A stretch of DNA of 64,000 nt from Ilex aquifolium (lineage: Eukaryota > Streptophyta > Magnoliopsida > Aquifoliales > Aquifoliaceae): the NCBI GenBank assembly GCA_951799425.1, contig OX637391.1:20818551-20882550 (forward strand), written 5' to 3'. The notes beneath the pieces were generated by a model. That model was not told the DNA's origin, ran no database searches, and was given only the letters and a program-made list of their open reading frames with translations. Of the stretch, positions 7,976-63,058 are shown in pieces. Numbering within the stretch: the first letter of the stretch is position 1; each line of letters opens with the position of its first letter. The translations under genes were made by a program, and so were the position numbers.

Positions 7976-9224
7976 ATGACACCACTTCTCTCTCCTATTT
8001 TCTCACTCATTCCATGCATGTTTCTTTTGTTTCGACTTGGTATCCAGATACCAGTGCTTCCTCCCAAATGACGGCTCACATAGGTAGCTTATCTTGTTTC
8101 TCTTCGTATACTAATACTGATAATGTGCAAGTTAGTAACAGACATTTTTATGCATTACTCATTCTACCATTCAATCCACATTCTAATTTTGATCTTCTAA
8201 TGTTTTGGTTGATCCCCAAATTCAAAAAAATCTTCTTTTTGTGAATCAATTTACGTTTGATAATAATAGCAGTATTGATTTGGATACATTTGGTTTTTCT
8301 ACCAAAGACCTCTAGTCGAAGAAGAAATTTCTCATTCGTAATAGTTTGGGTCCTATCTATCCTATTGATCATTATGCCATTCGTGTTGGATCCATGGTGT
8401 CTACTTTTGCGACGTCTCGGGTGTCTCCAGAAATTTGGCATCGACGTTTAGGTCATCCCGACTATAGGATTTTGTCTTTTCTTTGGAATAATGGCGTGTT
8501 ACCTTCTTCTTGTAATCAAATTGACTCGACTGTTTGTCAGGCTTGTCAATTGGAAAAGCATGTAAGATTGTCATTTAGTGAATGTCATGGTCATTCTGAA
8601 CGACCTTTTGCTTTAATTTATTCAGATCTTTGGACCTCTGTGGTTCCTTCATTCATTGGTTTTCGTTATTATTTATTGTTCATGGATGATTTCTCTCGCT
8701 TTTGTTGGGTATTTCATCTTCGTCGAAAATTTGAAGCTTTTGAAAATTTTAAATTATTACATGCATTTGTTTTGACGCAATTGCATGCCTCCATTCATAG
8801 TTTCTAATGCGATAATGGATGTGAATATATAACAATTCCTTCAAATTATTTTTAATTCATGTGGGATACGCTTACATTTGGGTTGTGCAATCTTTTTAAT
8901 ATTCTTCCTAAATCTACGGATTTCGTCTTCTTTTCAACTTCTTTATGTCCACCCCTTCTCCCACACTCCCTTTAGAATATTCAGATGTGCTTGTTATCCT
9001 AATATTACCTCCACCACATGTAATAAACTATCCCCTAGGTCCACACTTCGTATTTTTTTTTTGGAAATTCTGATGAACACAAGGGATATAGGTGCTTTGA
9101 TCCAGCCCGTAATTGAGTCATTATATCTCGCCATCTTTGGTTTGATGAAGCTAATTTTCCTTTTCCTTGTCCCAACCGAAATCAACCCACCCAACTGGAC
9201 TCTTGATCCTTCACTTTCCATTGG
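7976..9224 (+). pseudogene. Copia polyprotein, protease and integrase portion (decayed)
   Basis: The family is recognisable although frames change repeatedly. WYPDTSASSQMTAH near 8040-8080 is the copia protease site. The pre-integrase zinc domain follows (IWHRRLGHPDY ... VCQACQLEKH, about 8435-8570). The integrase core begins with YSDLWTSVVPSF and LLFMDDFSRFCWVF (about 8610-8715). The second catalytic Asp is in CDNGCEY near 8810, right after an in-frame TAA. Frameshifts occur near 8250 and 8880. The upstream gag and 5' LTR are not in the window because B interrupts the element. The gene is dead, and its sequence is far more decayed than the gypsy elements inserted in it, so it is the older host. 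Confidence 0.85.
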
Positions 9225-15372: not shown

Positions 15373-17318
15373 TGTTCTTGATCCGAAATGTGTACACCCA
15401 AGTGCAGGCGGTCAAGCTGTAGTAATAATCCGGTTTGAGTCCGCAGTCGAATCCACAGGGAACTTTTGTTGATATTTCTGAGGTAAGCAGTGGTAGAGAC
15501 CTATTGATTGTAACCCTTGAGATTTGCTGTGAGATATGAGTTTTCCTGGACATAATATAAGATTCTTTCCAATAGGATTTTCTTAACAAAACAGGAGATA
15601 AGTGCTAATTAAAAAAGTCACTCTTTAGTGCAAGGATCTGGACATATAGTTAGTTATCCGGTTTGTTATAATTGTGCTTGATAATTCAATTAACTCCTGT
15701 GTCAACAGCAAGTTAATCGGAAGATAAAGATGGATTGTGAGAATTAAGAACATGATTCCGATGTCTTTCTAGAAGTTTACAAGAATTGCCTGTGCCGAGA
15801 CTTAACCCGTCCACAAACAAGCAAGTGTTTCTACAAGACATCCAATCATGATATTAATATTACATTCTTTAAATGAAGTACAATAAGGGGGAGGATTGAA
15901 GGGTAGTCATGAGGATCTAGCCGGGGTACTTGCCTTGAACTAATGAGTCTTTCTATGCAAGAGTCATCCGTGTCATAGAAAGTGCCCACAGTTATACAAA
16001 GTACCTTAGCTTTGCTAGATACAATCAATCATCCAATAACAAGAAGAAATAAACGTTAAGCATAAAAAAAATGCACAAATATGATTCCCGGATAACTTAT
16101 ACATGCCCTTCTCCTCTTACTAAAGAGTGAATGAGAAACTACTCACTCTTCATAGCTTGAGTAAAGCTAGAAAAGTGAGTGATGCTCATCCCTCCAAGTA
16201 GAGAACTTAAAAGATAAAGTAACAACAAACACAAAGCCAATCTTTAACAAAGAATGGGTGAATCACGTTCCACCATTCACGGCTTTGGTAAAGCTCTAGA
16301 AAAGTGGAAGAGTTTCACTCTTCTAAGAAAGAAAGAAGCTCAAGCAATGGAAGTGAAATGCATGAACGATAAAAGTAGAAGAAAGCTAGTCACATTTGGA
16401 GGGTGGCTTCCTCAACCAAGAATTGGAGGGTTGCTTCCTCAACCAAAAGATGAACTATCTCTCTTCTATGCATGTAAAATGAAAGCATAAGCATAAGCAT
16501 AAGCATAAAACTACTTTTATAACAAGCAAGAGATGTTGGACTAAAGCCAAACTAATCTCTAAGATAAAGACTTCATACAAGGAAAATAAGCTAAATCTAC
16601 AAGGTGAGTGGGAGTCTAAGCCTCCATCAACTATTCTACTTGGCTCCTTTAGCTCTCCAACAAGGGGAGTATTTATAGGCAAGAGGAGGAGACAAGAGGA
16701 GGTGAAGGAATAGTGTTTGCCGCCCAAGTCCAAGTGAAAAGCCAACCACTCTGCTGCCAGTCTATGGAGAACGTTCGAACATGAGTTGGCGTTCGAACGT
16801 TGTTTCTGTTTTTGCACTAAGGGCGTTCGAACGTTGACTGCCGTTCGAACGTTTCTTCTGTTTTTGCACTAAGGGCGTTTGAACGCCAGATGTGTTCTGA
16901 CCCTTTCACTCGAGTGGTCTGTTGGTCTTCTGTGAAGTTCAGTTCCAACTCTATGCAGTAGTCTGGTCTTCAATCAACTCAAGTGCACGTTCGAACGTGA
17001 GTTGGCGTTCGAACGTTACACTCAAGTGCTTCAGAGCTTCAGTCTTCTTTCCTCATTGCAACACGCCTTCTCTTAGCAGTTGAGTATGCTACAGTGTAAT
17101 GTGGACGTTCGAACGTGAGTTGGCGTTCGAACGTTCTGGCTGTGCTCCAAGCTTCTCCAATTTTGGGCTCTAATGTGCTGGTGTTGCATCCAAGTGTGGT
17201 ACTTGTTGTTCTTGGGTCCTTGTTCAGTTTAGGGCCTGAAATGACATCACTTAAACTCCATCAAAGTACAATTAGTCTTAAAACGACATAGTAATATGCT
17301 AATTTTAAGTGCTAATCA
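15373..17318 (-). repeat. 3' LTR of element D
   Basis: Minus-strand termini are TGATTAGCACTT and GATCAAGAACA, 1,946 bp. U3 holds ACGTTCGAACGT-type palindromes between about 16770 and 17137, mostly in pairs 18 bp apart. The TATA box CCTATAAATACTCC is at about 16669-16681, roughly 100 bp downstream of the nearest palindrome. A short AAGCAT hexamer tandem lies at 16484-16507. In the transcribed part, a TTTCTAG-AGCTTTACCAAAGCC module occurs twice. Plus- and minus-strand small frames inside are chance frames. Confidence 0.95.
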
Positions 17319-20460: not shown

Positions 20461-20785
20461 CTTTTATAGCCTGAGTCGTAACGTTCGAACGTTGGTAACG
20501 TTCGAACGTGTCTAGAAGGATTTAAACAAATCGTTCGAACGTGGTTTGGCGTTCGAACATGGTGAGCTCTCAGTACTTTTGAGTTTCTATCAAAGGCCAA
20601 AGTACTGTAAGCATCTCACGTTCGAACGTCACCTGGCGTTCGAACGTTAATCTCGTTCGAACAGTCTATTGGCATTCGAACGGACTGAGCTCCCAGTACT
20701 TTTAAGTTTCATCAGAAGCTTCATCAGAGGCTGAGTACTGTAAGCAACTGACGTTCGAATGTCACCTGGCGTTCGAACGTTGAAC
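20461..20785 (-). promoter_or_regulatory. Element D candidate internal promoter with TTCGAA palindromes
   Basis: On the minus strand a run of TTCGAA cores (starting at 20772, 20754, 20675, 20656, 20639, 20621, 20552, 20534, 20501 and 20484) precedes a TATA box CTATAAAAG (20461-20469). Spacings within pairs are 17-19 bp, mostly 18. The nearest core ends about 15 bp from the TATA box. The ORF ATG follows 210 bp later. The array contains a duplicated unit with GAGCTC and AGTACT. The same palindrome fills the LTR U3 of this family. Promoter function is inferred, not shown. Confidence 0.6.
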
Positions 20786-27727: not shown

Positions 27728-29668
27728 TGTTCTTGATCCGAAATGTGTACACCCAAGTGCAGGCGGTCAAGCTGTCGTAATAATCCGGTTTGAGTCCGCA
27801 GTCGAATCCACAGGGAACTTTTGTTGATATTTCTGAGGTAAGCAGTGGTAGAGACCTATTGATTGTAACCCTTGAGATTTGCTGTGAGATATGAGTTTTC
27901 CTGGACAGAATATAAGATTCTTTCCAAGAGGATTTTCTTAACAAAATAGGAGATAAGTGCTAATTAAAAAAGTCACTCTTTAGTGCAAGGATCTGGACAT
28001 GTAGTTAGTTATCCGGTTTGTCATAATTGTGCTTGATAACTCAATTAACTCCCGTGTCAACAGCAAGTTAATCGGAAGATAAAGATGGATTGTGAGAATT
28101 AAGAACATGATTCCGATGTCTTTCTAGAAGTTTACAAGAATTGCCTGTGCTGAGACTTAACCCGTCTACAAACAAGCAAGTGTTTCTACAAGACATCCAA
28201 TCATGATATTAATATTCCATTCTTTAAATGAAGTACAATAAGGGGGAGGATTGAAGGGTAGTCATGAGGATCTAGCCGGGGTACTTGCCTTAAACTAATG
28301 AGTTTTTCTATGCAAGAGTCATCCGTGTCATAGAAAGAGCCCACAGTTATACAAAGTACCTTAGCTTTGCTAGATGCAATCAATCATCCAATAACAAGAA
28401 TAAATAAACGTTAAGCATAAAAACAATGCACAAATATGATTCCCGGATAACTTATACATGCCCTTCTCCTCTTACTAAAGAGTGAATGAGAAACTACTCA
28501 CTCTTCATGGCTTGAGTAAAGCTAGAAAAGTGAGTGATGCTCATCCCTCCAAGTAGAGAACTTAAAAGATAAATTAACAACAAACACAAAGCCAATCTTT
28601 AACAAAGAATGGGTGAATCACGTTCCACCCTTCACGGCTTTGGTAAAGCTCTAGAAAAGTGGAAGAGTTTCACTCTTCTAAGAAAGAAAGAAGCTCAAGC
28701 AATGGAAGTGAAATGCATGAACGATAAAAGTAGAAGAAAGATTGTCACATTTTGAGGGTGGCTTCCTCAACCAAGAATTGGAGAGTTGCTTCCTCAACTA
28801 AAAGATGAACTATCTCTATGCATGTAAAATGAAAGCATAAGCATAAGCATAAGCATAAAACTACTTTTATAACAAGCAAGAGATGTTGGACTAAAGCCAA
28901 ACTAATCTCTAAGATAAAGACTTCATACAAGGAAAATAAGCTAAATCTACAAGGTGAGTGGGAGTCTAAGCCTCCATCAACTATTCTACTTGGCTCCTTT
29001 AGCTCTCCAACAAGGGGAGTATTTATAGGCAAGAGGAGGAGACAAGAGGAGGTGAAGGAATAGTATTTGTCGCCCAAGTCCAAGTGAAAAGCCAACCACT
29101 CTGCTGCCAGTCTATGGAGAACGTTCGAACGTGAGTTGGCGTTCGAACGTTGTTTCTGTTTTTGCACTAAGTGCGTTCGAACGTTGACTGCCGTTTGAAC
29201 GTTTCTTCTATTTTTGCACTAAGGGCGTTCGAACGCCAGATGTGTTCTGACCCTTTCACTCGAGTGGTCTGTTGGTCTTCTGTGAAGTTCAGTTCCAACT
29301 CTATGCAGTAGTCTGGTCTTCAATCAACTCAAGTGCACGTTCGAACGTGAGTTGGCGTTCGAACGTTACACTCAAGTGCTTCAGAGCTTCAGTCTTCTTT
29401 CCTCACTGCAACACGCCTTCTCTTAGAAGTTGAGTCTGCTACAGTGTAATGTGGACGTTCGAACGTGAGTTGGAATTCGAACGTTCTGGCTGTGCTCCAA
29501 GCTTCTCCAATTTTGGGCTCTAATGTGCTGGTGTTGCATCCAAGGGTGGTACTTTTTGTTCTTGGGTCCTTGTTCAGTTTAGGGCCTGAAATGACATCAC
29601 TTAAACTCCATCAAAGTACAATTAGTCTTAAAACGGCATAGTAATATGCTAATTTTATGTGCTAATCA
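27728..29668 (-). repeat. 5' LTR of element D
   Basis: 1,941 bp with the same termini as the 3' LTR. U3 TTCGAA palindromes lie at about 29119-29490 and the TATA box at about 29019-29031 (minus strand). The AAGCAT tandem is at 28834-28857. One palindrome pair member has decayed to GAATTCGAAC near 29476, and others show single C-to-T or G-to-A changes. The U5 end carries the shared GATTCGACT...CACTTGGGTGTACAC block. Confidence 0.95.
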
Positions 29669-30550: not shown

Positions 30551-32056
30551 TGCTTGCCCTTCAAAGGGGTAGCATTTTCACGAAAGCTCCCAAGCGTAAG
30601 AGAAAGGTATTGCGTAGTAACTTGAACAAAAGTCCAAGGTCAGCTCCTTAGGGAAAGAATTGAAATCCAAGGTGATGAAAAATAAAATGAAAAAGCTCTT
30701 TGAGTTCAAGAATTTTGAGAGTTAGCTACTAATGAAATTGAAATTCAATAAATGGAAAAAATGGATAATCTTCAGAATTCGTCTCACCTATGAATAAGAG
30801 TTTCTAACTAAAATCTACAAATCATTTGCTTTCTTATTCAAACTACCACATAAGGATGATTTTCAACTAAAAACTTGGAAAGAACTAGTGTAGGAATTGA
30901 AAGATGGTTTATGATAGAAGAATCAGTACTCTAAATGTTGCAGAAAATACCACAATTATTTGTACCAATCCTAATTGCATACAAATAATAGGGACATATG
31001 CAAACCAATTAGGTTTTTAAAAGCATAACCTGTTCAATCAATCACATAAACGTTGAAACCCTAGTTTAAGGCATATGCCCTACTTCATAGATTTGAGACT
31101 CCTTCCTCATATCATTTAGAAGAAAACTACTTACTCATGATAATGAAATTGACGTATAGTTTAAAAGAAAATATAATTGGATGCAGAAAAGTAAAGGCTG
31201 AAATTAAATTGATTACTTGCATTGAAAAACTAAATGTAAATAATAAAGCTCTGCAAGTAAAGACAATTGAAATTAAGTATTTCTTGAACAATAAAAGAAA
31301 ATAATTAAAATTAAAAGAAAATTCTGTAAAGTAAACCCTAAAACTCTCTAACAAGAAAAGTAAAAAAAAACAACTCCTAAAAGCGTCCTCTCTCTCTAGC
31401 CTCCAAGGGTTTCTATTTATAATCGTTAGGAAGGAGAATCTTCATCTCTTTAAAAGATATCAATCCCAAAATTATCCCCATATTTTATTGGATGAGAATC
31501 TCCAAAAGATTTGGCAAAATCTGATCTTCAATTAAGCTTCTCGGGAATATTTGCCTCTACCTACTGGTAGCATGGTAGACATACCGGTAGGTCTCTGTCT
31601 GTTAGGAACTTCTGAAACTTCTGTAGCTTCTCCTACCTGTAGTTAATCTAGAACAAATCTTCTGATAAAAGTAATGGGGCTTAGCTATCGGTAGAACGTG
31701 GTACAACTACCGGTAGAACTTCTCTGATGAGAACTTGTAAGCTTTTGTGAGCTCAGCTACCGGTAGAACTGACTTCCTTCCAGTAGAACATTGTCTTTCT
31801 GTCTTCCTACCGATAGTTCTTCTCTTTTCTTCAATTGACTTTGCAAGGCCCTCGACTTTATCTAATCCCGAGTAAACTCACTGCCACCTTGTTCCTTGCA
31901 TTATATCCATGCTAAAACTCCATGTTTATACCTAAAATACCTGCAACACCAAAATCAAGGCTTAAGATACAATATGCTCTAAGTGAAACAAGTTAGTTAG
32001 CAAGCCTAAATTGGAGGTAAAAGGGTATGAAATAATGTAATATTGAGTGCTCATCA
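30551..32056 (-). repeat. 3' LTR of element G
   Basis: On the minus strand it runs from TGATGAGCACTC (32056) to GGGCAAGCA (30551), 1,506 bp, with the PPT immediately upstream. U3 palindromes of CTACCGGTAG type pair at 31561/31581 (20 bp), 31685/31707 (22 bp) and 31757/31777 (20 bp). The TATA-like ATTATAAATAG lies at 31413-31423. The U5 end block CTAAGGAGCTGACCTTGG...ACGCTTGGGAG lies near 30580-30650. The LTR interrupts the protease gene of element C. Confidence 0.75.
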
Positions 32057-32998: not shown

Positions 32999-33125
32999 GG
33001 GACTTTTATAGTGAAAAGAATGGGTAAGAGTTAGGCAACCCTTGGAATTCCCAAAAAAATCTTTTCTTTAAGCCTTAGACCTAACTCCTACCGGTAGTAG
33101 ATACACGACCTACCGATAGGACTCT
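32999..33125 (-). promoter_or_regulatory. Element G candidate internal promoter with ACCGGT palindromes
   Basis: CTACCGGTAG (33088) and CTACCGATAG (33110) form a pair 22 bp apart, the same palindrome and spacing as in this element's own LTR. On the minus strand a TATA box CTATAAAAG (33003-33011) follows about 80 bp downstream, and the charged ORF starts at 32762. A GT/GA microsatellite (32840-32896) lies in the presumed leader. This parallels D, E and F. Confidence 0.5.
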
Positions 33126-36034: not shown

Positions 36035-37971
36035 TGATTAGCACTTAAAATTAGCATGTTACTATGCCATTTTAAGACTAATTGTACTTTGATGGAGTTT
36101 AAGTGATGTCATTTCAGGCCCTAAACTGAACAATGACTCAAGAACAACAAGTACCACACTTGGATGCAACACCAGCACATTAGAGCCCAAAATTGAAAAA
36201 GCTTGGAGCATAGCCAGAACGTTCAAACGCCAACTCACGTTCGAACGTCCACATTGAACTGTAGCAGACTCAACTGCTAAGAGAATGCGTGTTGCAGTTA
36301 GAAAAGAAGACTGAAGCTTTGAGGCACTTGAGTGTCACGTTCGAACGCCAACTCACGTTCGAACGTGCACTTGAGTTGATTGAAGACCAGACTACTGCAT
36401 AGAGTTGGAACTGAACTTCACAGAAGACCAACAGATCACTCGAGTGAAATGGACAGAACACATCTGGCGTTCGAACGCCCTTAGTGCAAAAACAGAAGAA
36501 ACGTTCGAACGTCATTCAACGTTCGAACGACCATAAAGCAAAAACAGAAACAACGTTCGAATGCCAATTCACGTTCGAACGTTCTCCACAGACTGGCAGC
36601 AGAGTGGTTGGTTTTTCACTTGGACTTGGGCGGCATACACTATTCCTTCACCTCCACTTGTCTCCTCCTATTGCCTATAAATACCCCCCTTGTTGGAGAG
36701 CTAGAGGAGCAAAAGAAAAGGGTTGATGAAGGCTTAGACTCCCACTCACATTGTAGATTTAAGCTTATGTTTTCCTTGTATGAAGTCTTTATTTTAGAGA
36801 TTAGTTTGGCTTTAGTCCAACATCTCCTTGTTTGTTATAAGAGTAGTTTTATGTTTATGCTTTCATTTACATGCATAGAAGGGAGTTAGTTCATCTTTTG
36901 GTTGAGGAAGCAACCCTCCATTTCTTGGTTGAGGAAGCCACCCTCCAAATGTGACTAGTTTTCTTCTACTTTTATTGTTTATGTACTTCACTTCCATTGC
37001 TTGAGCTTCTTTCTTTCTTAGAGGAGTGAAACTCTTCCACTTTTCTAGAGCTTTACCAAAGCCGTGAAGGGTGGAACGTGATTCACTCAATCTTTGTTAA
37101 AGATTGGCTCCTTGTTCATTGTTATTTTATTTTTAAGTCTTCTACTTGGAGGGATGAGCATCACTCATTTTTCTAGCTTTACCAAAGCCATGAAGAGTGA
37201 GTAGTTTCTCATTCACTCTTTAGTAAGAGGAGAAGGGCATGTATAAGTTATCTAGGAATTATAGTTGTGCTCTATTCTAATACTTAACGTTTATTTCTCT
37301 TTGTTTATTGGATGATTGATTGCATCTAGCAAAGTTAAGGTACTTTGTATAATCGTGGGTTCTTTCTATGACATGGATGACTCATGCATAGAAAGACTTA
37401 TTGGTTCAAGGTAAGCACCCCGGCTAGATCTTCAGGACTACCCTTCAATCCTCCCCCTTATTGTGCTTCATTTAAAGAATGGAATATTAATGTCATGATT
37501 GGATGTCTTGTAGAAACACTTGCTTGTTTGTAGACGGGTTAAGTCTCGGCACAGATAATTCTTTTAAACTTCTAGAAAGACATCGGAATCATGTTCTTAA
37601 TTCTCACAGTCCATCTTTATCTTCCGATTAACTTGTTGTTGACACGGGAGTTAATTGAGTTATCAAGCACAAGTATAATAAACCGGATAATTAACTACAT
37701 GTCCAGATCCTTGAACTAAAGAGTGACCCTTTTTCATTAGCATTTATCTCCTGTTTTGTTAAGAAAATTCTCTTGGAAAGAATCTTATATTATGTCCAGG
37801 AAATCTCACATCTCTCAACAAATCTCAAAGGTTACAAACGATAGGTCTCCACCACTGCTTATCTCAAAAACACCAACATAAGTTCCATGTGGATTCGACT
37901 CCGGACTCAAACCGGATTATTACTACAGCTTGACCGCCTGCACTTGGGTGTACACATTTCGGATCAAGTCA
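36035..37971 (+). repeat. Solo LTR of the D/E family, inserted in the LTR of H
   Basis: TGATTAGCACTT to GATCAAGTCA, 1,937 bp, with perfect 5-bp duplication GTAGG (36030-36034 and 37972-37976). The U3 array has TTCGAA-type cores at 36222/36240, 36340/36358, 36470, 36504/36522 and 36556/36574; every pair is exactly 18 bp apart. The TATA box CCTATAAATAC lies at 36674-36684. The transcribed part has the duplicated TTTCTAG...CTTTACCAAAGCC module (about 37034-37074 and 37161-37204). No internal region remains. Confidence 0.95.
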
Positions 37972-38623: not shown

Positions 38624-38706
38624 ATACCGGTACTGTGTACCGGTACACTGCTGCCCAGCAGACAGACAGTACCGGTACTGCGTACCGGTACGCAGTACCG
38701 GTACAC
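38624..38706 (+). repeat. GTACCGGTAC palindrome array in the H LTR
   Basis: ACCGGT cores start at 38626, 38639, 38671, 38684 and 38697. Neighbours within each group are exactly 13 bp apart. The array lies downstream of the TATA box, so it would be transcribed, unlike the U3 arrays of the Athila-like elements. Confidence 0.8.
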
Positions 38707-38994: not shown

Positions 38995-39012
38995 TGGTAT
39001 CAGAGCTTAGGT
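38995..39012 (+). promoter_or_regulatory. Element H primer-binding site (initiator tRNA-Met type)
   Basis: TGGTATCAGAGCTTAGGT complements the 3' end of the plant initiator tRNA-Met, three bases after the LTR end. A noncoding leader runs to the gag ATG at 39348; the 64-codon frame at 39041 in it is probably chance. Confidence 0.9.
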
Positions 39013-39694: not shown

Positions 39695-40619
39695 TGATTA
39701 GCACTTAAAATTAGCATGTTACTATGCCATTTTAAGACTAATTGTACTTTGATGGAGTTTAAGTGATGTCATTTCAGGCCGTAAACTGAACAAGGACTCA
39801 AGAACAACAAGTACCACACTTGGATGCAACACCAGCACATTAGAGCCCAAAATTGGAAAAGCTTGGAGCACAGCCAGAACGTTCGAACGCCAACTCACGT
39901 TCGAACGTCCACATTGCACTATAGCAGACTCAACTGCTAAGAGAAGGCGTGTTGCAGTTAGAAAAGAAGACTGAAGCTCTGAGGCACTTGAGTGTCACGT
40001 TCGAACGCCAACTCACGTTCAAACGTGCACTTGAGTTGATTGAAGACCAGACTACTGCATAGAGTTGGAACTGAACTTCACAGAAGACCAACAGATCACT
40101 CGAGTGAAAGGGACAGAACACATCTGGCGTTCGAACGCCCTTAGTGCAAAAACAGAAGAAACGTTCGAACGTCATTCAACGTTTGAAAGACCATAAAGCA
40201 AAAACAAAAACAACGTTCGAACGCCAATTCACGTTCGAACGTTCTCCACAGACTGGCAGCAGAGTGGTTGGTTTTTCACTTGGACTTGGGCGGCATACAC
40301 TATTCCATCACCTCCGCTTGTCTCCTCCTCTTGCCTATAAATACCCCCCTTGTTGGAGAGCTAGAGAAGCAAAATAGAAGGATTGATGGAGGCTTAGACT
40401 CCCACTCACATTGTAGATTTAAGCTTATGTTTTCCTTGTATGAAGTCTTTATTTTAGAGATTAGTTTGGTTTAGTCCAACATCTCCTTGTTTGTTGTAAG
40501 AGTAGTTTTATGTTTATACTTTCATTTACATGCATAGAAGGGAGTTAGTTCATCTTTTGGTTGAGGAAGCCACCCTCCAAATGTGACTAGCTTTCTTCTA
40601 CTTTTATTGTTTATGGACT
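39695..40619 (+). repeat. Element E 5' LTR, first segment
   Basis: Nearly identical to the solo LTR at 36035: TGATTAGCACTT start, U3 palindrome pairs (39870-40245), and TATA box CCTATAAATAC at 40334-40344. It breaks off near 40620, inside the transcribed part just after TTATTGTTTATG. About 30 bp present in the solo LTR are missing across the break. Confidence 0.9.
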
Positions 40620-41640: not shown

Positions 41641-42713
41641 TGATTAAGGCCGAATAATCACACTTATTATTAGGAAAGATTGATATTTTAATTATAAAAG
41701 TGTGATAAATATAAGAGTTTATCCAAGTTTGGGTGTTATGCTATTAAATGTTGATTTGTGATAATTTGCAGGATAAAAGCATAACTTTGGAGTTAAGATA
41801 TGGAAAGACCAAGTGTAGCTCAAAGGGAAACACACTGGATAACGCATCCGGACGCATGAAGACCACGCGTCCGGACGCGATTGGCATAAAGCTGATGAAC
41901 GGAGAAAGGACCATTCTGGAAGTTGCGTCCGGACGGTTCTGAGAGGTGCGTCCGGACGCGTGTCAAGTTTCTGCTGCCGAATTTAGAATCCTAATGGGAT
42001 GCAATCTCTTTGGAATGTACTTTATAAATACAAACCTAGGACCTTGAAAAGGGGGGTTCTTTTTCATTAATCTGTTTTTGAGATCCTTTTACCATGTCTG
42101 GCTAAAAGGCTAAGCTAGGGCTAGGGGAGAACCTCTCGACGGAGTATGGTATTTTTTTATTGACTCTTGTACTTAAGGATTTATGTTATTGTGGTAATTT
42201 AATCCCTAATATTTTAGCAAAGTGTTTATGCTGTATAAACTCTTGAGTTGTTGTGCCACGTACATCAATTGCTTGATTTTCCCTGCGTGTAAATCACTGG
42301 TTATTCCAAGCTGGAAGGATTAACATTATTTCATAAAATACTATGATTGAATGATTATTCAGGTTCCTGGTAGTTGTTTGATTATAACTTTTAGATTTAT
42401 CACTTGATTTGTTAATCGGATTAACTGACATTTAATTCTTCTTTCAAGTCAAGCTTTGAGTTTTTAACTATTATTGTATGAGTTGAGAGGGAGTACCTGA
42501 TGCTCTAGTATTTATTTTATTACTGTTCTAATTACCAAAACCATTTTTTATCCATTCGACAATTTTCCAAACAAATCTTTTTCCTTTCAAATTACTTTTA
42601 TTGTTCGTGTGATTGCTTCTTGTTACAATTCCTCGTGGGATCGACCTCGGACTTCCGAGATTATATTACTTTGCTCAACCTGCGCTTGGGTTTACACTTT
42701 TGAAGTTGAAGCA
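41641..42713 (+). repeat. 5' LTR of element F
   Basis: TGATTAAGGCCG to GAAGTTGAAGCA, 1,073 bp. U3 has four CGTCCGGACG-type palindromes, with TCCGGA cores at 41847/41870 and 41928/41951, each pair exactly 23 bp apart. The TATA box CTTTATAAATAC is at 42019-42030. The U5 block GGATCGACCTCGGACTTCCG, forming a CTCGGA/TCCGAG hairpin, lies near 42638-42660. Confidence 0.9.
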
Positions 42714-42719
42714 AGTTTT

Positions 42720-42737
42720 TGGCGCCGTTGCCGGGGA
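42720..42737 (+). promoter_or_regulatory. Element F primer-binding site (tRNA-Asp, perfect)
   Basis: TGGCGCCGTTGCCGGGGA exactly complements the 3' end of plant tRNA-Asp as I know it, six bases after the LTR. It is the least decayed PBS of the Athila-like set here. Confidence 0.95.
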
Positions 42738-42876: not shown

Positions 42877-45800
42877 ATGAGCTTTTGGCATCGTGATTTA
42901 AGTGGACGTTTAACAAGAGAAGATTCAGATACTCTGTTTGGAAATTTATTTGATTTATCTGTGTCGAATCACTTCTTTCACACAATGACTGCTAATCCTA
43001 ATGACCATAGGCAGAATGATCTTCCCGAACGGGAGGATCATGTTGATAGAATAAGTAATCATGATGAGAATGAGGTGGATAATGTTAATCAGGGTAGGAC
43101 TTTGCGTGAGTATCTACAACCTGTACTTCTCACTGAACCGTCATGCATAATTTTTCCATTGAATGCCATTAATTTTGTTTTCAAACCTGGCATGATTCAA
43201 TTACTTCCAAAATTCCTGGGTATAGGTGAAGAAAACCCATATTTGCACATCAGAGAATTTGGGGATGTATGTGCTACGTTCCATGACCAGAATGTTGCAA
43301 TGGATATAGTCAGGCTGAAGTTATTCCCTTTTTCATTAAAGGAAAAAGCTAAAACTTGGTTATATTCGTTGAGATCTAGGTCTATAGGAACATGGCAGGA
43401 GATGCATAAACAATTTTTAAAGAAATTTTTTCCCACACATCGCACAAACTCTTTGAAAAGACAGATAATGAATTTTTCTCAAAAGGAGTCTGAAAATTTT
43501 TATCAAAGTTGGTAAAGATTTAAAGACCTTCTTGCATCTTGTCCACATCATGGTTATGAAAGCTAGCGCATAATAAGTTTCTTTTATGAGGGTTTAGGCC
43601 CACAGCTGCGTCAATTTATTGAAATGATGTGTAATGGTGATTTTATGAATAAGGAACCAGATGATGCTTTTGACTATTTAGACCAATTAGCCGAGAGTGC
43701 ACAATCTTGGGATACTACATCCCAGGAACCATCTAAGGGTAAAACTACACAATCATCATCATCTAGTGGGGGCAAATACCAGTTGAGGGAAGAGGATGAC
43801 CTAGGAGCTAGGATAGCCACCTTAACAAGACGGGTAGAGGCTATGGAGTACAAAAAGGTTAACCAGGTTGACACAGTTCAAGTTGAGGGAATATGCAGTA
43901 TCTGTGAAATCCCTGGACACCCTGTGACGGAGTGTCCATCATTACCTGCGTTAAAAGAAGTGTATGACCAAGCAAATATTGTAAACACTTTTTCAAAGCC
44001 TTACAATAATCCGTACTCGAACACATACAATCCAGGGTGGAAGAATCATCCAAATTTTAGTTGGAGGAATGACAATCATGCATCACAATCACCCCAACAA
44101 AACTCTTCAAATGTTGCACCTTACATTCCACGCCCGAAAAGAGACATTGAGGAAGTGTTGTCACAATTTATGCAGAGGCAGCAAACATACAATAGACAAA
44201 CAACTCAAGCTATTGAGGATATGAGGAGTGCAATCACTAAATTGACCATTGACCCTTGCCATCAGGAAAAAGGTAGGCTTCCAGCACAACCACAACCGAA
44301 TCCACAGGGTCAATTTGTTGTGAATGAGACTTGCATTTCTGAGACTGTCCATGAGCAAGTAAAGTCTATCACTACACTCCGCAGCAGGAAAGAAATTAAT
44401 AAAACCATTCCTTTGGAAACTCAAGATTCTGAAAAGATTTCTCAACCCACGGAGAGTGATGATAAGATTAGCCTGTCTGAAATCAATAAGTCTGAAAAGT
44501 ATGTTCCACCTGCACCATTCCCACAGAGATTGCTTACGTCTACCAAGCCCATTGTGCATAATGATATGTTAGAGATTTTTAAGCAGGTGAAAATCAATAT
44601 TCCCTTGTTGGATGCCATTAAACAAATACCTTCTTATGCAAAATTTTTGAAAGAGTTATGCACTGTTAAAAAGAAATTAAATGTGCAAAAGAAGGCATTT
44701 TTGACCGAGCAAGTATCTTCCATTATACAGCACAGAACTCTACCAAAGTATAAAGACCCAGGTTGTCCTACTATTTCTTGTGTTATAGGCAACCACAAAA
44801 TTGAACAAGCATTACTGGATTTAGGAGCTAGTGTGAATTTGCTCCCCTATTCAGTATATGAACAATTAGGGTTGGGGGAGTTAAAACCCACTTCGGTTAC
44901 ACTTCAATTAGCTGACCGATCAGTGAAGATACCGAGGGGTATGGTGGAGGATGTTTTAGTACAGGTTGATAAATTTTATTTTCCCGTGGATTTCATAATT
45001 TTGGACACTCAACCTGTATTAAATACTAGTGCTCAAATTCCCGTCATTTTAGGCAGACCATTCCTAGCAACTTCAAATGCTCTAATTAATTGCAAGAATG
45101 GTGTGATGAAATTGACCTTTGGGAATATGACATTAGAGCTCAACATTTTTAACGTGTGCAAACAACCTGGGAATATTGATGAAGATGTGCATGAAGTTAA
45201 CATGATTGAATCTATTGTTCCAAGCAGAGTATATGATTATTCCTTGTTTGATCCACTTGAAGCGTGTTTGCTTGAACAATATTCTGAGTTAGAGATAGAT
45301 GAGAGGAATTCTGAAATTTTTGTTTCAACTGATATGTTAAACTCTTTGCAGGTACCTCAAATGAGAGAGTTGAGACAGAGATTTGAGGAGCTCCCACCAA
45401 GAACTGATCCACCAATACCATCCAAGGATAAAGCTCCCAAGCTAGACCTCAAGCAATTACCGGTAGATTTGAAATATGCATTTTTAGGAGATGATGAAAC
45501 TTATCCGGTAATAATTTCTTCTCGATTGAATTCAGCACAGGAAGGTATGTTGTTACACCTTCTTAAGGAACATAAGAATGCAATTGGTTGGACTTTAGCT
45601 GATATAAAAGGAATTAGCCCTTTGGTTTGCACCCATAAGATTTATTTGGAAGACAATGCTAAAACATCTAGGGAGATGCAACGTAGGCTAAATCCACATA
45701 TGAAAGAAGTTGTGAAAAAAGAGGTGTTGAAACTATTAGATGTAGGAATTATCTACCCTATTGCAGACAGCAAATGGGTAAGCCCCACACAGGTAGTTCC

Positions 45801-48339
45801 TAAGAAATCTGGAGTCACTGTAGTTGCTAATGAAAATAATGAATTTGTGCCAACTAGAATAGTTACTGGTTGGAGAATGTGCATAGACTACAGGAGACTT
45901 AACGTTGTTACTAGAAAAGACCACTTCCCTTTGCCTTTTATGGATCAAATTTTAGAAAGGGTTGCTTCACACTTGTACTATTGCTTTTTAGATGGTTATT
46001 CGGGATATAACCTGATTGAAATTGCCCTAGAAGACCAAGAGAAGACCACATTTACTTGCCCTTTTGGCACCTTTGCTTATCGAAGGATGCCTTTTGGACT
46101 ATGCAATGCACCGGCGACTTTTCAAAGGTGTATGCTTAGTATTTTCAGTGATATGGTTGAACGTTTTCTTGAAGTTTTTATGGATGATTTTACTGTCTTT
46201 GGTGATTCCTATGATGACTGTTTATCTAACCTTGAGAAAGTGCTTATAAGATGTGAAGAAAAGAACCTGGTACTTAACTGGGAGAAATGCCACTTCATGG
46301 TTCGGAAGGGAATTGTTCTTGGTCACATTGTCTCTTTTGAGGGAATTCAGGTAGATAAGGCCAAAATTGAATTAATCGTTAATTTACCTATCCCTAAAGC
46401 CCTTAAGGATGTTAGATCTTTCTTGGGTCATACTGGTTTTTATAGGAGATTTATAAAGGATTTTAGTTCCATATCTAGACCACTCTGCAATCTCCTAGGG
46501 AAAGACACACCTTTTGAGTGGGATAAAGCATGCCAAGAAGCTTTTGATAAGTTAAAGGACATGCTTGTCACTGCTCCAATCATGCAACCCCCAGATTGGA
46601 GTCGTCCTTTCAAAATCATGTGTGACGCCAGTGACTATGCTGTAGGGGCAGTTTTAGGACAAAGGAATGACAAAAAGCCTCATGTCATCTACTATGCCAG
46701 TAGAACTTTAAATAGTGCACAGATGAACTATTCTACCATAGAAAAAGAATTATTGGTTGTAGTATTTGCACTAGACAAATTCAGGTCGTACTTAGTGGGT
46801 TTCCCCATTGTTATCTTCACAGACCATGCAGCTCTCAAATACTTATTAACTAAGAAAGATGCAAAGCCGAGACTGTTGAGGTGGATCCTACTACTCCAAG
46901 AATTTGATATCACTATTAAGGATAAAAAAGGAGTAGAAAATGTAGTGGCTGACCATTTGTCTAGACTGGTGAGTGATGTGCCCATTGAGACAGTGCCGAT
47001 CAAAGATACTTTCCCGGATGAACAGTTATTGGCAGTTTCTTCATTACCATGGTTTGCTGACATTGTGAATTTTCTTGTTACAGGTAACATGCCACCGGCT
47101 TGGACTGCTTTGGATAAGAGGAAATTTTTAGTCGAAGTAAAGAGTTTCTTCTGGGATGACCCATACCTTTTCAAATATTGCCCAGACCAGATTATCCGGA
47201 GATGTGTACCTGATGATGAGGTAAGTAGCATTTTATCTTTTTGTCATTCGGAAGCGTGTGGAGGCCATTTTTCTATGAAAAAAACCGCTGCAAAAATTTT
47301 GCAGTGCGGATTTTATTGGCCTACAATTTTTAAGGATGCCCATAATTTTTGTAAAGTGTGTGAGCGATGTCAAAAACTGGGGGGATTGACCCGTAGGAAT
47401 ATGATGCCCCTAAACCCGATTTTGATCATAGAAATTTTTGACTGCTGGGGAATAGATTTCATGGGTCCTTTTCCCCCATCTTTTGGGTATATGTACATTT
47501 TAGTGGGAGTAGATTATGTCTCTAAGTGGGTTGAAGCTATACCATGTCGGACAAATGATCATAAAGTTGTTTTGAAATTTTTAAAGGAAAATATTTTGTC
47601 CAGATTTGGTATACCTCGAGCCATTATCAGTGATGGGGGATTGCATTTTTGTAATAGACCTTTTGAAAATTTGATGAAGAAATATGGTGTAACACATAAA
47701 GTTGCAACTCCCTATCACCCACAGACAAGTGGTCAAGCAGAGCTTGCCAATCGGGAAATTTCTTACATTTTGGAAAAAACGGTGAACCAAGATCGTAAAG
47801 ATTGGTCATTACGACTAATCGATGCATTATGGGCATACCGGACTGCATATAAAACCCCGATTGGTATGTTTCCGTACAGATTGATTTATGGAAAAGCTTG
47901 TCACTTGCCTGTGGAATTAGAACATAAAGCATACTGGGCCATTAAGATGTTCAATTTTAATTTTGACAAAGCTGGTACCTTACGAAAGTTGCAATTAAAT
48001 GAGCTTGAGGAGATTAGGAATGAGGCGTATGAGAACTCTAGAATTAGTAAAGAACGCATGAAGGTGTTTCATGATAAAAATATTGTGCGTAAAACCTTTA
48101 CACCTGCACAGAAAGTTCTTCTTTATAATTCTAGACTTCATATCTTCAAATGAAAGCTTCGAACCAGATGGAGTGGTCCATACATTGTTAAGGAGGTATT
48201 CCCCTATGGAACAGTGGAGATTGAAAACCCAAGTAATGGGAACATTTTTAAGGTTAATGGGCAAAGATTGAAACCATTCTTGGAGGAGGGTATCGTGGAA
48301 GTGGAATCCATCGAATTGGTGGATCCCCACTATGAATGA
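42877..48339 (+). pseudogene. Element F gag-pol polyprotein, one frame with three stops
   Basis: One frame of about 1,820 codons runs from ATG 42877 to TGA 48337-48339. It is interrupted only by TAA 43513, TAG 43564 and TGA 48151, so gag and pol are one polyprotein with no frameshift site. Gag has LREYLQP, YLHIREF and NFYQSW, then zinc knuckle [14 protein letters not shown] (43894-43935). Protease has [16 protein letters not shown] (DLGA at 44818-44829). RT has MCIDYRRLN (about 45877-45903) and FMDD (about 46177-46188). RNase H has [13 protein letters not shown] and [10 protein letters not shown]. Integrase has HSEACGGHF...[27 protein letters not shown] and [10 protein letters not shown], so all three catalytic acids are present. 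The long 43624-48153 piece lacks only the gag N-terminus and the last 60 or so residues. The start could also be the Met at 42985. Confidence 0.92.
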
Positions 48340-48754: not shown

Positions 48755-48988
48755 GCGTCCGGACGCCATTATAGAGAACAAAACCTACTGGAAAACGCGT
48801 CCGGACGGTGATTTGTTATGTGTCCGGACGGGAAAGCTAATCATTTCAAATTCGGAAGACGCGTCCGGACGGGCTAACTCCATGCGTCCGGACGCGTGAC
48901 TTTTAAGACTAATTAAAGCGGCAGTTGAGGCGCGTCCGGACGAGTTAATCCCATGCGTCCGGACGCGTGTGAAAAATTATAAATACTG
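48755..48988 (+). promoter_or_regulatory. Element F candidate internal promoter with CCGG palindromes
   Basis: TCCGGA cores start at 48758, 48800, 48823, 48864, 48887, 48935 and 48958. The pairs 48800/48823, 48864/48887 and 48935/48958 are each exactly 23 bp apart, as in the LTR of the same element. TATA box ATTATAAATACTGG (48975-48988) begins about 14 bp after the last core, and the downstream ORF ATG is 100 bp from it. A transcript starting about 30 bp below the TATA would have a leader near 70 nt. Function is inferred. Confidence 0.65.
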
Positions 48989-49077
48989 GATGTCCGGTGG
49001 GCATTGCTTGCACTGCAAGCCTCCAAACAAACTCTTCACTCTAAATTTTTGCTCTCTTCTTAAAATTTTCTGCTACT

Positions 49078-50166
49078 ATGGCACCACCTCGAGCATCCAC
49101 TTCAAAGAGACCCCGAGTGGATACTCAGGAGGAGGAGGAGGATACCACCTTTGATCCCGTTCGTTTCCAAACTTTGGAGGCACGGGTAAGATTTTTCAAA
49201 TATTACGCTCAAAAACCTGTAGTCTGTGAGAGAAAAATTGAATACGAGGACTTCGCTCGATTGGGAGTCCGAGATATCATCACTTCTAGACGTTGGGCAG
49301 GTTTCATGGGTAAAGAGTGGGTGTGTATCCCCATCTTGGCGAGAGAGTTCTTTAGCAATGCAGACGATCTTGGCAATGGCCAAATCCACGCCTATGTTCG
49401 GGGCATAGAAATCAGGGTGGATGCTGTAGCTATTGCCAGACTGATTGGGATGACGCAGGCTCGGGTGTCCAACCCGGATTATCCCCATGCTTATCCCGGG
49501 AATGAGGTCGGACGAGAGTTACTGGGGGATGGTGATTTTATTTGGACGGACAACCTCAAATATCTTCAGCAAGGGGACTTGACCAGTAAGTATAAAATAC
49601 TGAACTTAATCTCAGTGTCAAACATCCTTCCTCTACTGAGAAATAATCACATCTATCCGGACCGAGCTCGCTTGTTATATGCTATGGGCACCGGAAAGAC
49701 CATTGACCTCCCATCATTGATTTTTTCGGAGATGAGACGAGCCATTGTCGATCCGAAAAAACCATCTCTTCCTTTTGCTGGTTTGGCCACTGCGATGTGC
49801 GAGCAGGCAGGAGTGGTAATTGACGCCACTATGGAGCGGGCAAAGAAAGTGGTGGCACTCAACTCTAGCACTCTTTTGAAAAGTCAGAGTGTAGCCAGGC
49901 CAGTGCCGGGAGAGAGGGCTCCAGGGGGTGAGCAGGCACCACCACCAGAGGGGGATGTGCCGGTAGAGGATTGGGATCAGTTCCTCAATATTGATGAGGA
50001 CTTTGAGATACCAGTGGATGAGGACACTGATCCCAGGACTGACAGACAGATTTTGTTTGAGCTGCTGAGAGGGCAGAGAGAGATGAAGAAGGAGATGAGA
50101 GAGTTAAGGGCGCAGATGAGGGGGCTTGGGCAGAGTTCTCAGAGTCAGGCAGGCCCCTCATCTTAG
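49078..50166 (+). CDS. Element F plant-transposon-domain protein, intact 362 residues (env-position)
   Basis: ATG 49078 follows the internal TATA box by 100 bp. The N-terminus has a basic, possible nuclear signal (STSKRPRVD). Residues about 25-260 form the domain shared with D and E: VVCERKIEYEDFARLGV, AREFFSNADD, HAYVRGIEIRVD, GRELLGDGDFIWTDN and ARLLYAMGTGKTIDLPSLIF. From memory this is the putative plant transposon protein domain common downstream of pol in Athila-type elements. A Pro/Glu-rich linker and a charged coiled-coil-like helix (REMKKEMRELRAQMRG, about 336-351) end the protein. No signal peptide or membrane span is visible, so it is probably not an envelope. The ORF is uninterrupted although gag-pol carries three stops. 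The function is unknown. Confidence 0.85.
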   Translation: MAPPRASTSKRPRVDTQEEEEDTTFDPVRFQTLEARVRFFKYYAQKPVVCERKIEYEDFARLGVRDIITSRRWAGFMGKEWVCIPILAREFFSNADDLGNGQIHAYVRGIEIRVDAVAIARLIGMTQARVSNPDYPHAYPGNEVGRELLGDGDFIWTDNLKYLQQGDLTSKYKILNLISVSNILPLLRNNHIYPDRARLLYAMGTGKTIDLPSLIFSEMRRAIVDPKKPSLPFAGLATAMCEQAGVVIDATMERAKKVVALNSSTLLKSQSVARPVPGERAPGGEQAPPPEGDVPVEDWDQFLNIDEDFEIPVDEDTDPRTDRQILFELLRGQREMKKEMRELRAQMRGLGQSSQSQAGPSS

Positions 50167-51878
50167 GATGATTTCTGCTAGGTCCCAGTGTTTGAAAGTT
50201 GTTTCTTTTATTTCCTTTACTGTATTTGTGAGATCAAGGCCTATTTTGGGTAGTTTTTGTTAGGCTTGATTTCTTTTATCTTTTGAATATGCATTGTACT
50301 CAAATTCTCATTATTATATAAAATGCATATTTTGTTTGGTGTGTTATTAAATATCTAAATAACATTGTTATGAATAAATTGATACCACAATATTGAAATA
50401 ATTTGTTCAATTTTAAATTTGCAACTGTTTAAGCATCACGTAGAACTTTATTCTATATTTTTGTATTTCATATCATGTTCTTATAAAAACTCACAATTGG
50501 TGCACTTTAGACTTTACCAAGTTGAAAATTTGTTAGGTATTTTACTTTGAGAACTTGAAACATATAGTGGAGATGCATAAAAACCCTAGTGAGTTTTGTT
50601 CCAATCTTTCTTGGAGGGTTATTTACATTTACTCAGTAAAAAATATTGTGTTTCAATAGTGTCATTATTTACATTTACTCAGTAAAAAATATTGTGTAAA
50701 AAATATTGTGTTTTACATTTCTTCAATAGTCTCATTATTTTTGTTTTGGTTAACACCAATATTGTGAATGATTGCTTGACTTTGAATTATTTGCATGAGA
50801 AGTGTGTTATCAAAAGCTCTTGAGATATGATTTTAGGCCATCTTTGATATTATTTGAGCCTAAGTCTTATTCTTTGATTATTATTATCCCTAGAAGCCAT
50901 GATTGAGCCTTTGAAAAAAAAAAAAAAAAAATTTCTTATACCCAACATATAATAACCAAGCTAATGAAAAAAAATAATATCATTTATCCTTGTTTATCCC
51001 GAGATTGAGCTTTTTTATTGTTTATGTAATTTGGGAGATGTTGGTTGAGAAAAGATGAAGAAAAAAAAAAAAAAGTTTTGCATGCTTGTGAATATTTGCA
51101 TTAGATGTCTTGCTAAAAAAAAAAAAGAAAAGAAAAAAAAAAAAGTTGAAAAAAAAAAGAAAGACAATATGTCTAGCTATGAAAAAAAAAGAGAAAAAAA
51201 TAGCAAGCATGTGTTTGAAAAAAAAAAAAAATATGAGCAAGTGATGTAAATTGTGCTTCTAAAGGATGGAGAGTGAAAGACTATGGAAAGAAGTTTGGTT
51301 GTGTAATGTACATGTTCTCTCGGGATAGTCTTTTGAATTCCTGAATATCCTTCGTTTCAAAACCCTAATCCCAAGACCCCATTACAACCTTAAATAAAGA
51401 CCTATTTGATCTCAAGAGTGTATTGATAGATGCATGACTTGTGTGAATAAGGAAGAGAATGGTGATTATTTATTTATTGTGTGTTGATTTCCTTTCATGA
51501 GATTATGTCAAATCATTTTCTTTTGGATTACAATTATTTTAATGGAACATGTGAGCATTATTTTGTTTTGACTTAAATATCTTCTTCTCACATGTGATAT
51601 TTGAGAGAATAGTCACTATAATATGAGAGAATCTGTTATGAGTGAATTATCCAGTGAGATTTGGCATTGAGACGAATAGTTGATAGTTGTAGAGGTGATT
51701 ATCGAATAAGTTATTGACTTGGTATAGTTAATTCACACTACACACGATTTTATATGGGAACATGATAAGTGCATACATTTATATAGCGTATAGTTATATA
51801 TTTTGTTTTACATAAGCTTATAAAAAAGTTTGCATCTTAGAATTTTTATATTGTGGTAGCAATTTGTGTTATAACTCT
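50167..51878 (+). other. Element F 3' UTR and unassigned junction
   Basis: AT-rich noncoding DNA. A segment with ACTCAGTAAAAAATATTGTG is duplicated at 50629-50720. Motif I is at 50820-50910 (GATTTTAGGCCATCTTTGAT, then CATGATTGAGCC). A-rich runs at 50912-50930 and 51059-51235 create Lys-rich frames that are not genes. Motif II, hairpin, PPT and 3' LTR are missing. Positions 51770-51878 are unassigned and run into the LTR of E. Confidence 0.6.
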
Positions 51879-61439: not shown

Positions 61440-61764
61440 TTAACGTTCGAACGCCAGGTGACGTTCGAACGTCATCTGCTTATAGTACTCAGCCTTTGAT
61501 AAAGCTTCTGATGAAACTTAAAAGTACTGGGAGCTCAGTCCGTTCGAACGCCAATAGATTGTTCGAACGAGATTAGCGTTCGAACACCAATAGAACGTTC
61601 GAACGAAGAGAACCTACAGTACTTTGGCCCCTAACAAAACTCAAAAGTACTGAGAGCTCACCACGTTCGAACGCCAAACCACGTTCAAACGATCTGCTTA
61701 AAATCCTTCTAGACACGTTTGAACGTTACCAACGTTCGAACGTCACACCTCAGGCTATAAAATC
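61440..61764 (+). promoter_or_regulatory. Element E candidate internal promoter with TTCGAA palindromes
   Basis: TTCGAA-type cores start at 61446, 61464, 61543, 61562, 61579, 61598, 61666, 61684, 61718 and 61735, spaced 17-19 bp within groups. TATA box GCTATAAAATCC follows at 61754-61765, about 14 bp after the last core. The downstream ORF begins at 61978. It mirrors the element D array, including GAGCTC and AGTACT repeats between pairs. Confidence 0.6.
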
Positions 61765-61977: not shown

Positions 61978-63058
61978 ATGCCAAGAGTCAAGCTTCCTGT
62001 CAGGCGCAACCCAAACACCCAGGAGCCCAACTTCGTCGAGGAGGTGGTGGAAGTACGAGAAGCAATGCCACCACTCACGCGAAGATACGACAAAACTTGA
62101 TTTCCCACAGCTCTAAAAGCTGACAGGTATGAAAATTTCTACCAAAACAAAGTCATTGTTTGTGAAAAAGATGTGATTTTGGCTAATTTTGCAGAGTTGG
62201 GGATCTTTGCGGAGATGGAGAGGAGGGGGTGGTTGTTTTATTTGAGGAACGGCGGGGAGGCCGTGGTCGACTTGGTGCGGGAGTTTTACTCCAACGCCGA
62301 GATCATCGACGGGGAGATTCGAACATATGTAAGGGGAGTCCATTTGGACGTTGATAAAAATTATATTTGGGGGGTAAGGCAAGAGGTGCCTGGGGTACCA
62401 AGTCCCGCCTATCCCCCAAGGAAGAACGTGACAATGAATGAAGTGGGGAAGGAACTGACTGGAGTACCCAATTTTTCGTGGACTGGGAAGAAATTCTTTA
62501 GACAAGGGGAGCTAACTGACAAATACAAAATGTTCAACTTGATTGTGGTGTCAAACTTTGCCCCAATTGGAAGAAAAAATGAAATTCTGCCCGACATGGC
62601 CCGACTTTTGTATGCCATTGGAAAAGGGCAAAGCTTTGACCTCCCCCCCCCTGGTATTAATTGAGATGAAGAAAGAGTGTGACGTGAAGCGGAATTCACT
62701 TCCCTTAGGCACCCTAGTGACTGAGATATGCAAAAACCACGGGGTGAGGGTGAAGCCCGAGATGGAAATCCAAAAGCCAATGGGGCCACTGAACAAGGCT
62801 TCCTTCTGGAGAAGCCAAAGTCATAGTGGCGGCCCAGCGACAAGACAAGAAGACCCCCCTGCCTACGGAGTGGATGAGGTACAAGAGGAGCTTGATGAGA
62901 TGGAGGAGAGAGAGAGAGATCAGCCACAGGAGGCAGGTCCCAGCACCAGTAGTCGGAGATCACTGAGAGACATTATGATTAGCATCGAGGCCAACCAAGA
63001 CAAGATTCTCCGACAGCAGGATGAGATCCTTGGACTTCTGAGAGGTGGAGCTAGCTGA
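61978..63058 (+). pseudogene. Element E downstream ORF, plant-transposon-domain protein (broken)
   Basis: ATG 61978 (MPRVKLPVRRNPNTQ) runs to TGA at 62098, a CGA codon in D. The domain continues in the 62173-62664 piece: FAELGIFAEMERRGWLFYL, REFYSNAEIIDGEIRTYVRG, GKELTGVPNFSWTGK and ARLLYAIGKGQSFDLP. An expanded C run near 62643 shifts the frame, and the C-terminus continues to TGA 63056-63058 with MGPLNKASFWRSQ and a charged helix (IEANQDKILRQQDEILG). Small Ser/Arg stretches precede the helix. The same family is intact in F. Unlike D, the start of E is joined in frame through the EVREAMPP region. Confidence 0.85.

Follow-up and report, generated by a model that had tools for sequence, protein, structure and literature searches.

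A palindrome array followed by a TATA box, lying inside an Athila-like Ty3/gypsy retrotransposon of Ilex aquifolium (element F), is probably an RNA polymerase II promoter that would drive the PF20167 accessory gene of the element apart from gag-pol. The likely distinguishing feature of this internal promoter is that it carries the family-specific palindrome module of the element's own LTR U3 region, in the same pair spacing. Since module and spacing are the same in both places, one sequence-specific factor could act on both and co-regulate them. The pairing of the palindromes suggests that this factor would be a dimer or a tetramer, either a host protein or the PF20167 protein itself, and families seem to change their palindromes in both places together.

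The window, that is, the whole stretch of 64,000 nucleotides that was analysed, contains element F on its plus strand, in the order LTR, PBS-like site, gag, pol, non-coding stretch with the array and PF20167 ORF. The 5' LTR, as aligned with that of copy L013 (window 41641-42715), occupies 41641..42713 (~1.07 kb). It is followed at 42720 by the PBS-like sequence TGGCGCCG, and TGGCGCCGTTGCCGGGG after this LTR may be a tRNA-Asp primer-binding site (cf. a figure legend on Diaspora/Calypso). The gag contains Retrotrans_gag (PF03732, Pfam) and the pol ORF (43624..48153, tested in two pieces) contains RVT_1 (reverse transcriptase, RT) followed by rve (integrase); the Gag, RT and integrase domains were thus all found. 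The element was also considered as a Sirevirus and rejected, because RT precedes integrase in its ORF, which is not the Ty1/copia gene order. It has a 3' ORF of PF20167/Athila type, as expected of the Athila lineage of Ty3/gypsy elements, and, by its domains, is classed here as Athila-like. This ORF, at 49078..50166 on the plus strand, encodes 362 amino acids with a PF20167 (Transposase_32) match (Pfam E 1.1e-27). Family F moved recently, since the two LTRs of another copy (L012/L013), 1074 bp each, are 99.9% identical. In the window copy the 3' LTR is missing from its place: similarity to L008 and L013 ends at 51873-51874, and an LTR piece from another family starts there. The window copy stops about 0.2 kb short of the expected 3' LTR (51873-51876), adjoining a partial E-family LTR.

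The hexamer TCCGGA occurs 18 times in the window, compared with 6.4 expected from shuffles, and this number was reached in none of 100 shuffles. Seven occurrences lie at 48758-48963, within 206 bp, where by our own arithmetic about 0.02 would be expected at the shuffle background; four others lie at 41847, 41870, 41928 and 41951. The internal array (48756..48965, plus strand) consists of seven GTCCGGAC palindromes, six of which form three pairs spaced 23 bp, and the LTR U3 palindromes (41845..41958, plus strand) form two pairs spaced 23 bp as well. Both sets are followed by the TATA box TATAAATA, which stands at 48978..48985, 14 bp past the last palindrome of the array, and at 42023..42030, 67 bp past the last palindrome of the LTR. 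The first-pass annotation of this DNA had described seven palindromes directly upstream of a TATA box and an open ORF, the same palindrome ahead of a TATA box in the LTR U3, and an identical 23-bp pair spacing; all three descriptions are confirmed. Its statement that the LTR is the only other place with this palindrome holds for the extended form CGTCCGGACG, whose nine occurrences in the window divide into three in the LTR and six in the array, but not for the hexamer, which also occurs singly at 47195 (in pol) and 49656 (within the downstream ORF). Nowhere in the window is CpG denser than in the array stretch (24 CG per 200 bp), which has a CpG observed/expected ratio of 1.75 for 48755-48970 against 0.50 for the whole window. 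The last unit of the array runs on into ACGCGTGT, a sequence that ends the promoter-proximal unit of both the internal array (48960-48971) and the LTR (41949-41964). The position of the TATA box, taken alone, would place the start site and the 5' leader in 49008..49077 (plus strand), a pyrimidine-rich, ATG-free and poorly conserved segment.

Genome-wide, that is, in the 800-Mb assembly containing the window, the F palindrome-pair pattern gave 1028 forward and 1008 reverse matches, and 0 and 0 in the reversed control. Twenty stretches were taken around such matches, and the window plus nine copies found in this way by the palindrome itself make up ten distinct ORF-bearing F copies. A comparison of array presence over family members had been proposed as a check; the array is present in 10/10 ORF-bearing copies, nine of them palindrome-selected, so that an ORF copy lacking the array could have been missed. 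TATAAATA is invariant in all ten, 14-15 bp past the last palindrome and 83-106 bp ahead of the ORF start. Mean pairwise identity among the copies is 1.00 for the TATA box, 0.85 for the palindromes and 0.69 for the array spacers; the leader reaches 0.47 and the stretch ahead of the array 0.49. When a pair was defined as palindromes with at most one mismatch lying less than 35 bp apart, and one locus per copy was counted by hand, the internal spacing was 23 bp in 26 of 28 F pairs (one 22, one 24) and the LTR spacing was 23 bp in 22/22. None of the ten copies has an ATG between TATA+30 and the ORF, and the first 30 bp below the TATA box hold a single one, in the window copy. The downstream ORF is under purifying selection: dN/dS is 0.08-0.21 in the ten pairs formed by the five copies that are open to the end (in one of which, L015, the aligned start position holds no ATG), and dS exceeds 1 in 8/10 pairs; the other five F ORFs contain stops. 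A core promoter would be expected to leave traces of this kind, namely an invariant TATA box at a fixed distance, a conserved ORF and, in an otherwise divergent stretch, a pyrimidine-rich leader free of ATGs.

These traces also bear on the possibility that the ORF owes its expression to LTR transcripts, through splicing or readthrough, and that the array has another role or none within a long 5' UTR. Splicing has been predicted for the env-like genes of BAGY2 and Athila, as cited in the part of PMC2829016 available to us. A splice-acceptor-like T-tract does lie upstream of the array, with a site scoring at least 4 by our own crude matrix in 7/10 F copies; in the window copy the highest-scoring one ends 455 nt ahead of the ATG. 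The first-pass preference for a promoter instead of splicing is weakened to that extent. However, an LTR-derived mRNA would bear a number of ATGs ahead of the ORF (3-8 between -455 and the TATA box in the F copies), in nine of the ten copies no acceptor-like site between TATA and ATG reaches 1.3 (L009 has one at 3.4; L008 has none), and expression from the LTR leaves the invariant TATA box and the ATG-free leader without explanation. We regard it as unlikely. In seven of the twenty stretches, which may not span whole elements, palindromes occur but neither an ORF match nor an internal array was found; five of them (L019, L020, L021, L023, L024) have two clusters each and two (L025, L026) have one. 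The five with two F clusters are candidate trans-dependent relatives.

The palindromes could also be passive sequences that spread between LTR and internal place by duplication, template switching or gene conversion, with no regulator in common. Copy L011 is instructive here, as the middle unit of its internal array has the spacer of an LTR unit within internal-type flanks: the two places seem to exchange sequence, and common modules could reflect duplication or conversion instead of shared regulation. Outside L011, however, the spacers of LTR and internal units differ and are position-specific, while palindromes, spacing and TATA box are kept; moreover, passive CpG-rich sites should decay, and those of an old copy (L030) apparently have. 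A purely passive origin therefore appears very improbable. Match positions in L011 (G000:C1:18701487-18725008) point to a tandem array in which the palindrome units of LTR and internal place recur every 6689 bp. The old copy is the one PF20167 copy found in 80 kb sampled contiguously beside the window; it lies at L030:6660-6850 and 7206-8208, is 31-34% identical to F, and has apparently decayed GCGTCCGGACGC sites ahead of CTATAAAG, consistent with CpG decay.

The F palindrome-plus-TATA module was found at 194 exact places genome-wide and at none in the reversed control. The gap between palindrome and TATA box is 8 or 9 bp in all 100 F places listed, in a search that allowed 3-9 bp only. PF20167 matches found independently by profile (150 scored of 6661 candidates) were compared with the module on contigs C1 to C6, for which the module places are apparently all listed. 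All five uninterrupted 377-codon PF20167 frames on these contigs, one on C1, one on C2 and three on C3, are preceded by the module at about 0.3 kb; the match on C1 is copy L012/L013, already among the ten F copies, and since the five score nearly alike they are probably one recent subfamily. Two matches of similar score and length, each with a stop (C4, C6), have no exact module, and the same is true of further matches of uncertain family, such as C3:27014526, with respect to the module places on C1 to C6.

Four further families (E, D, K and H) have palindromes of their own ahead of the 3' gene and in their LTRs, the LTRs being verified as repeats for F and E and presumed for D, K and H, with H matching more loosely. 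The same palindrome before a TATA box in the LTR and again upstream of the 3' gene, which is the layout of Sireviruses, is found in F and E, in D and K with presumed LTRs, and in H in part only. The pair spacing tracks the family: 23 bp in F, about 18 in E, 20 in K and 22 in D. The E internal array of CGTTCGAACG palindromes (61444..61742, plus strand) precedes a TATAAAA at 61756, an ATG at 61978 opening a broken frame, and a PF20167 fragment at 62173-62664 (Pfam). A second E copy has its internal CGTTCGAACG array at 20482..20779 on the minus strand, with the TATA box at 20463-20468; the PF20167 gene is broken in both window copies. The E LTR U3 array of CGTTCGAACG lies at 29122..29481 (minus strand), with further LTR copies at 16772-17133, 36220-36581 and 39880-40241, and all 40 CGTTCGAACG of the window fall within E internal arrays or E-type LTRs. 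In E, three LTR pairs are spaced 18 bp and the internal ones 17-19 bp. The E module occurs at 522 places genome-wide and at 0 in the control, the surroundings being known for the two window places only; one palindrome-to-TATA distance is common to 99/100 E places listed, where 4-24 bp were allowed. Family D has CTACCGGTAG and one-mismatch copies of it in its presumed LTR U3 (31561..31816, minus strand; TATAAATAG at 31421) and a CTATCGGTAG/CTACCGGTAG pair in the internal position (33088..33119, minus strand; TATAAAAG at 33010), ahead of the start codon (~32764) of a broken ORF. A TATA box follows the palindromes in both positions, and the spacing is 22 bp in both, with 20 bp for a second LTR pair. 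The D ORF did not match either the F or the E proteins.

Families K and H came from ten upstream stretches taken at PF20167 matches regardless of palindromes and chosen, non-randomly, so as to vary in frame length and position. L036 and L037 appear to belong to one family (K) and L038 to L043 to a second (H), so that the sample amounts to two informative families, not ten. Both K stretches have an internal pair 20 bp apart and then a TATATA- or TACATATA-type box, and the presumed 3' LTR of a K copy has CCGTCCGGACGG and GCGTCCGGACGG 20 bp apart, ahead of TATAAATA. K comes nearest to a blind prediction, its LTR having been read after the internal pair was known. The K-type pattern gave 342 forward and 290 reverse matches, against 0 in the control; those listed measure 31 or 32 nt each, where 28-44 were allowed. 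Triples of such places recur on C1; the middle one is the internal pair in the one case read (L037), and the outer ones fit LTRs by position alone. From TATA+30 as far as the start codon, the E, K and D copies examined have no ATG besides that codon itself. The H stretches have 3-9 CAGCGC sites each, GCGCCTAGGCGC being exact in 4/6; only L041 among the six has a TATAAA between the dyads and the ORF, and its leader contains ATGs. A presumed 3' LTR of H (L047) has CAGCGC-CCCT-GCGCTG where the same copy has CAGCGC-CCCA-GCGCTG internally. GCGCCTAGGCGC, within two mismatches, is absent from the H LTR stretches L046 and L047, and CAGCGC is missing altogether from L046; what the internal and LTR sequences of H have in common is the CAGCGC-type dyad alone. 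Two of the ten protein-picked stretches (L035, L044) have no array and may belong to other transposons. Together with the T-tracts upstream of the F arrays, the poorer fit of H and these two arrayless stretches count against an internal promoter with an LTR-shared code.

The match between LTR and internal place was also examined by counting the k-mers common to each internal region and each LTR U3 of F, E, D, K and H. Among the 120 possible pairings, the one by family ranks first for 8-, 9- and 10-mers and shares first place with another (2 of 120) for 12-mers; this is a measure of consistency that carries no independent p-value, because the regions were delimited after the palindromes had been seen. 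The TCCGGA core is common to F and K: the F internal region has 11 10-mers in common with its own LTR and 8 with the K LTR, and the margin of K itself is thin (3 versus 2). The earlier proposal of a separate promoter carrying the code of the LTR gains from the conserved F copies, from the fixed module genome-wide and from further families of the same layout.

What the downstream gene encodes bears on which factor would read this code. An env protein was considered and ruled out because the F ORF has no transmembrane segment by hydropathy (maximum 19-residue value 1.26). The N-terminus of the F protein is basic (SKRPRV), like those of K and H, and a C-terminal helix was predicted with low confidence; AlphaFold2, run on five window sequences, gave a mean pLDDT of 38.7, too poor for a fold search. 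A protein database search with the ORF returned 5776 candidates, none at E <= 0.001, the IMG/VR search gave six pattern matches with no relative among them, and a PDB search by sequence gave no match. According to the accessible part of PMC11728184, ORF(+) of sunflower Athila 14 has the same PF20167 domain, and nuclear localization was predicted for the sunflower protein.

The palindromes may well be sites of host transcription factors or methylation sensors that differ by family, and not sites of an element-encoded protein. We consider this evenly balanced, and as it is a version of the shared-code promoter, its likelihood overlaps with that of the latter. The ACGCGTGT that ends the last F unit resembles an ABA-response coupling element, and family D shows the layout with no gene similar to the F and E proteins. 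Sirevirus palindromes resemble stress-related sites, as far as described in the part of PMC2829016 seen. Host factors would, however, require several families each to have recruited a different one in two places. A more tentative proposal, possible but on balance doubtful, is that the PF20167 protein is itself the putative reader, a nuclear dimer that would recognize its own family's pair both in its promoter and in the LTR, so that activation or anti-silencing would run in an autoregulated, family-specific circuit. Palindrome, spacing and protein would then diverge together, as in VANDAL/VANC or foamy virus Tas, and ORF-less elements that keep LTR palindromes would be its trans-dependents.

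Several known systems share parts of the shared-code promoter proposed here. Sireviruses have palindromes in their LTRs ahead of the TATA box, and in nine ENV-bearing Sireviruses 77/79 linker copies lie upstream of ENV, linker copies being found only in ENV-bearing elements; the authors of that study favour an internal promoter, which they were unable to identify conclusively (PMC2829016, as available in part). As in element F, the palindromes are family-specific, contain CG, cluster in the LTR and upstream of the ENV-like gene, and have CpG-island character (PMC2829016). In contrast to F, Sireviruses belong to the Ty1/copia superfamily and their palindromes, in all but Tnd-1, have the core CGG-CCG; the accessible part of that description makes no mention of pair spacing (PMC2829016). 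Athila6A of Arabidopsis, annotated with start sites, ORFs and an intron, has an internal promoter before a 3' ENV ORF, like the one proposed for F, for which the part of PMC4977677 seen mentions neither palindromes nor a code common with the LTR. In maize Grande, the accessory gene23 at the 3' end is likewise transcribed from a promoter just upstream, but it is antisense to gag-pol and of another lineage; its product is nuclear, according to the title of a work cited in PMC7264820, the available part of which describes this system. VANDAL elements have similar family-specific arrays of short motifs in non-coding regions, and the element-encoded VANC protein binds the coevolving arrays and counteracts silencing, whereas for F such binding is a proposal; VANDALs are DNA transposons, and the partial text of PMC5735166 does not describe their motif as palindromic. 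In foamy viruses, as described in the sources seen in part, one factor, Tas, acts on both LTR and internal promoter; these are animal retroviruses and Tas is a proven transactivator.

The first-pass annotation had known of no such arrangement in Athila-like elements. This was too strong a claim of novelty, since the same layout is described for Sireviruses (PMC2829016) and an ENV-ORF promoter is annotated in Athila6A (PMC4977677), at least in the parts of these papers that could be seen. For Athila or other Ty3/gypsy elements, searches of one open-access library yielded no description of a palindrome code common to LTR and internal promoter. What is new is that the layout occurs in Ty3/gypsy elements and that palindrome and spacing vary together; the internal promoter and the Sirevirus layout were known. 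A family-specific palindrome-and-spacing code makes it testable how Athila-like elements express their 3' gene, and what the role of that gene is: it predicts start sites within a few bases and which families share a regulator, and it points to a protein that may read it. Plant retrotransposons with two promoters may have a general solution in this layout, if it arose in Sireviruses (Ty1/copia) as well as in Athila-like elements (Ty3/gypsy). Finally, TACCGGTA palindromes form clusters at 38625-38703 in the window and at L028:1474-1583, apparently in the LTR of another lineage, the former cluster being followed near 38995 by the primer-site-like TGGTATCAGAGC; LTR palindromes here are therefore not limited to Athila-like elements.
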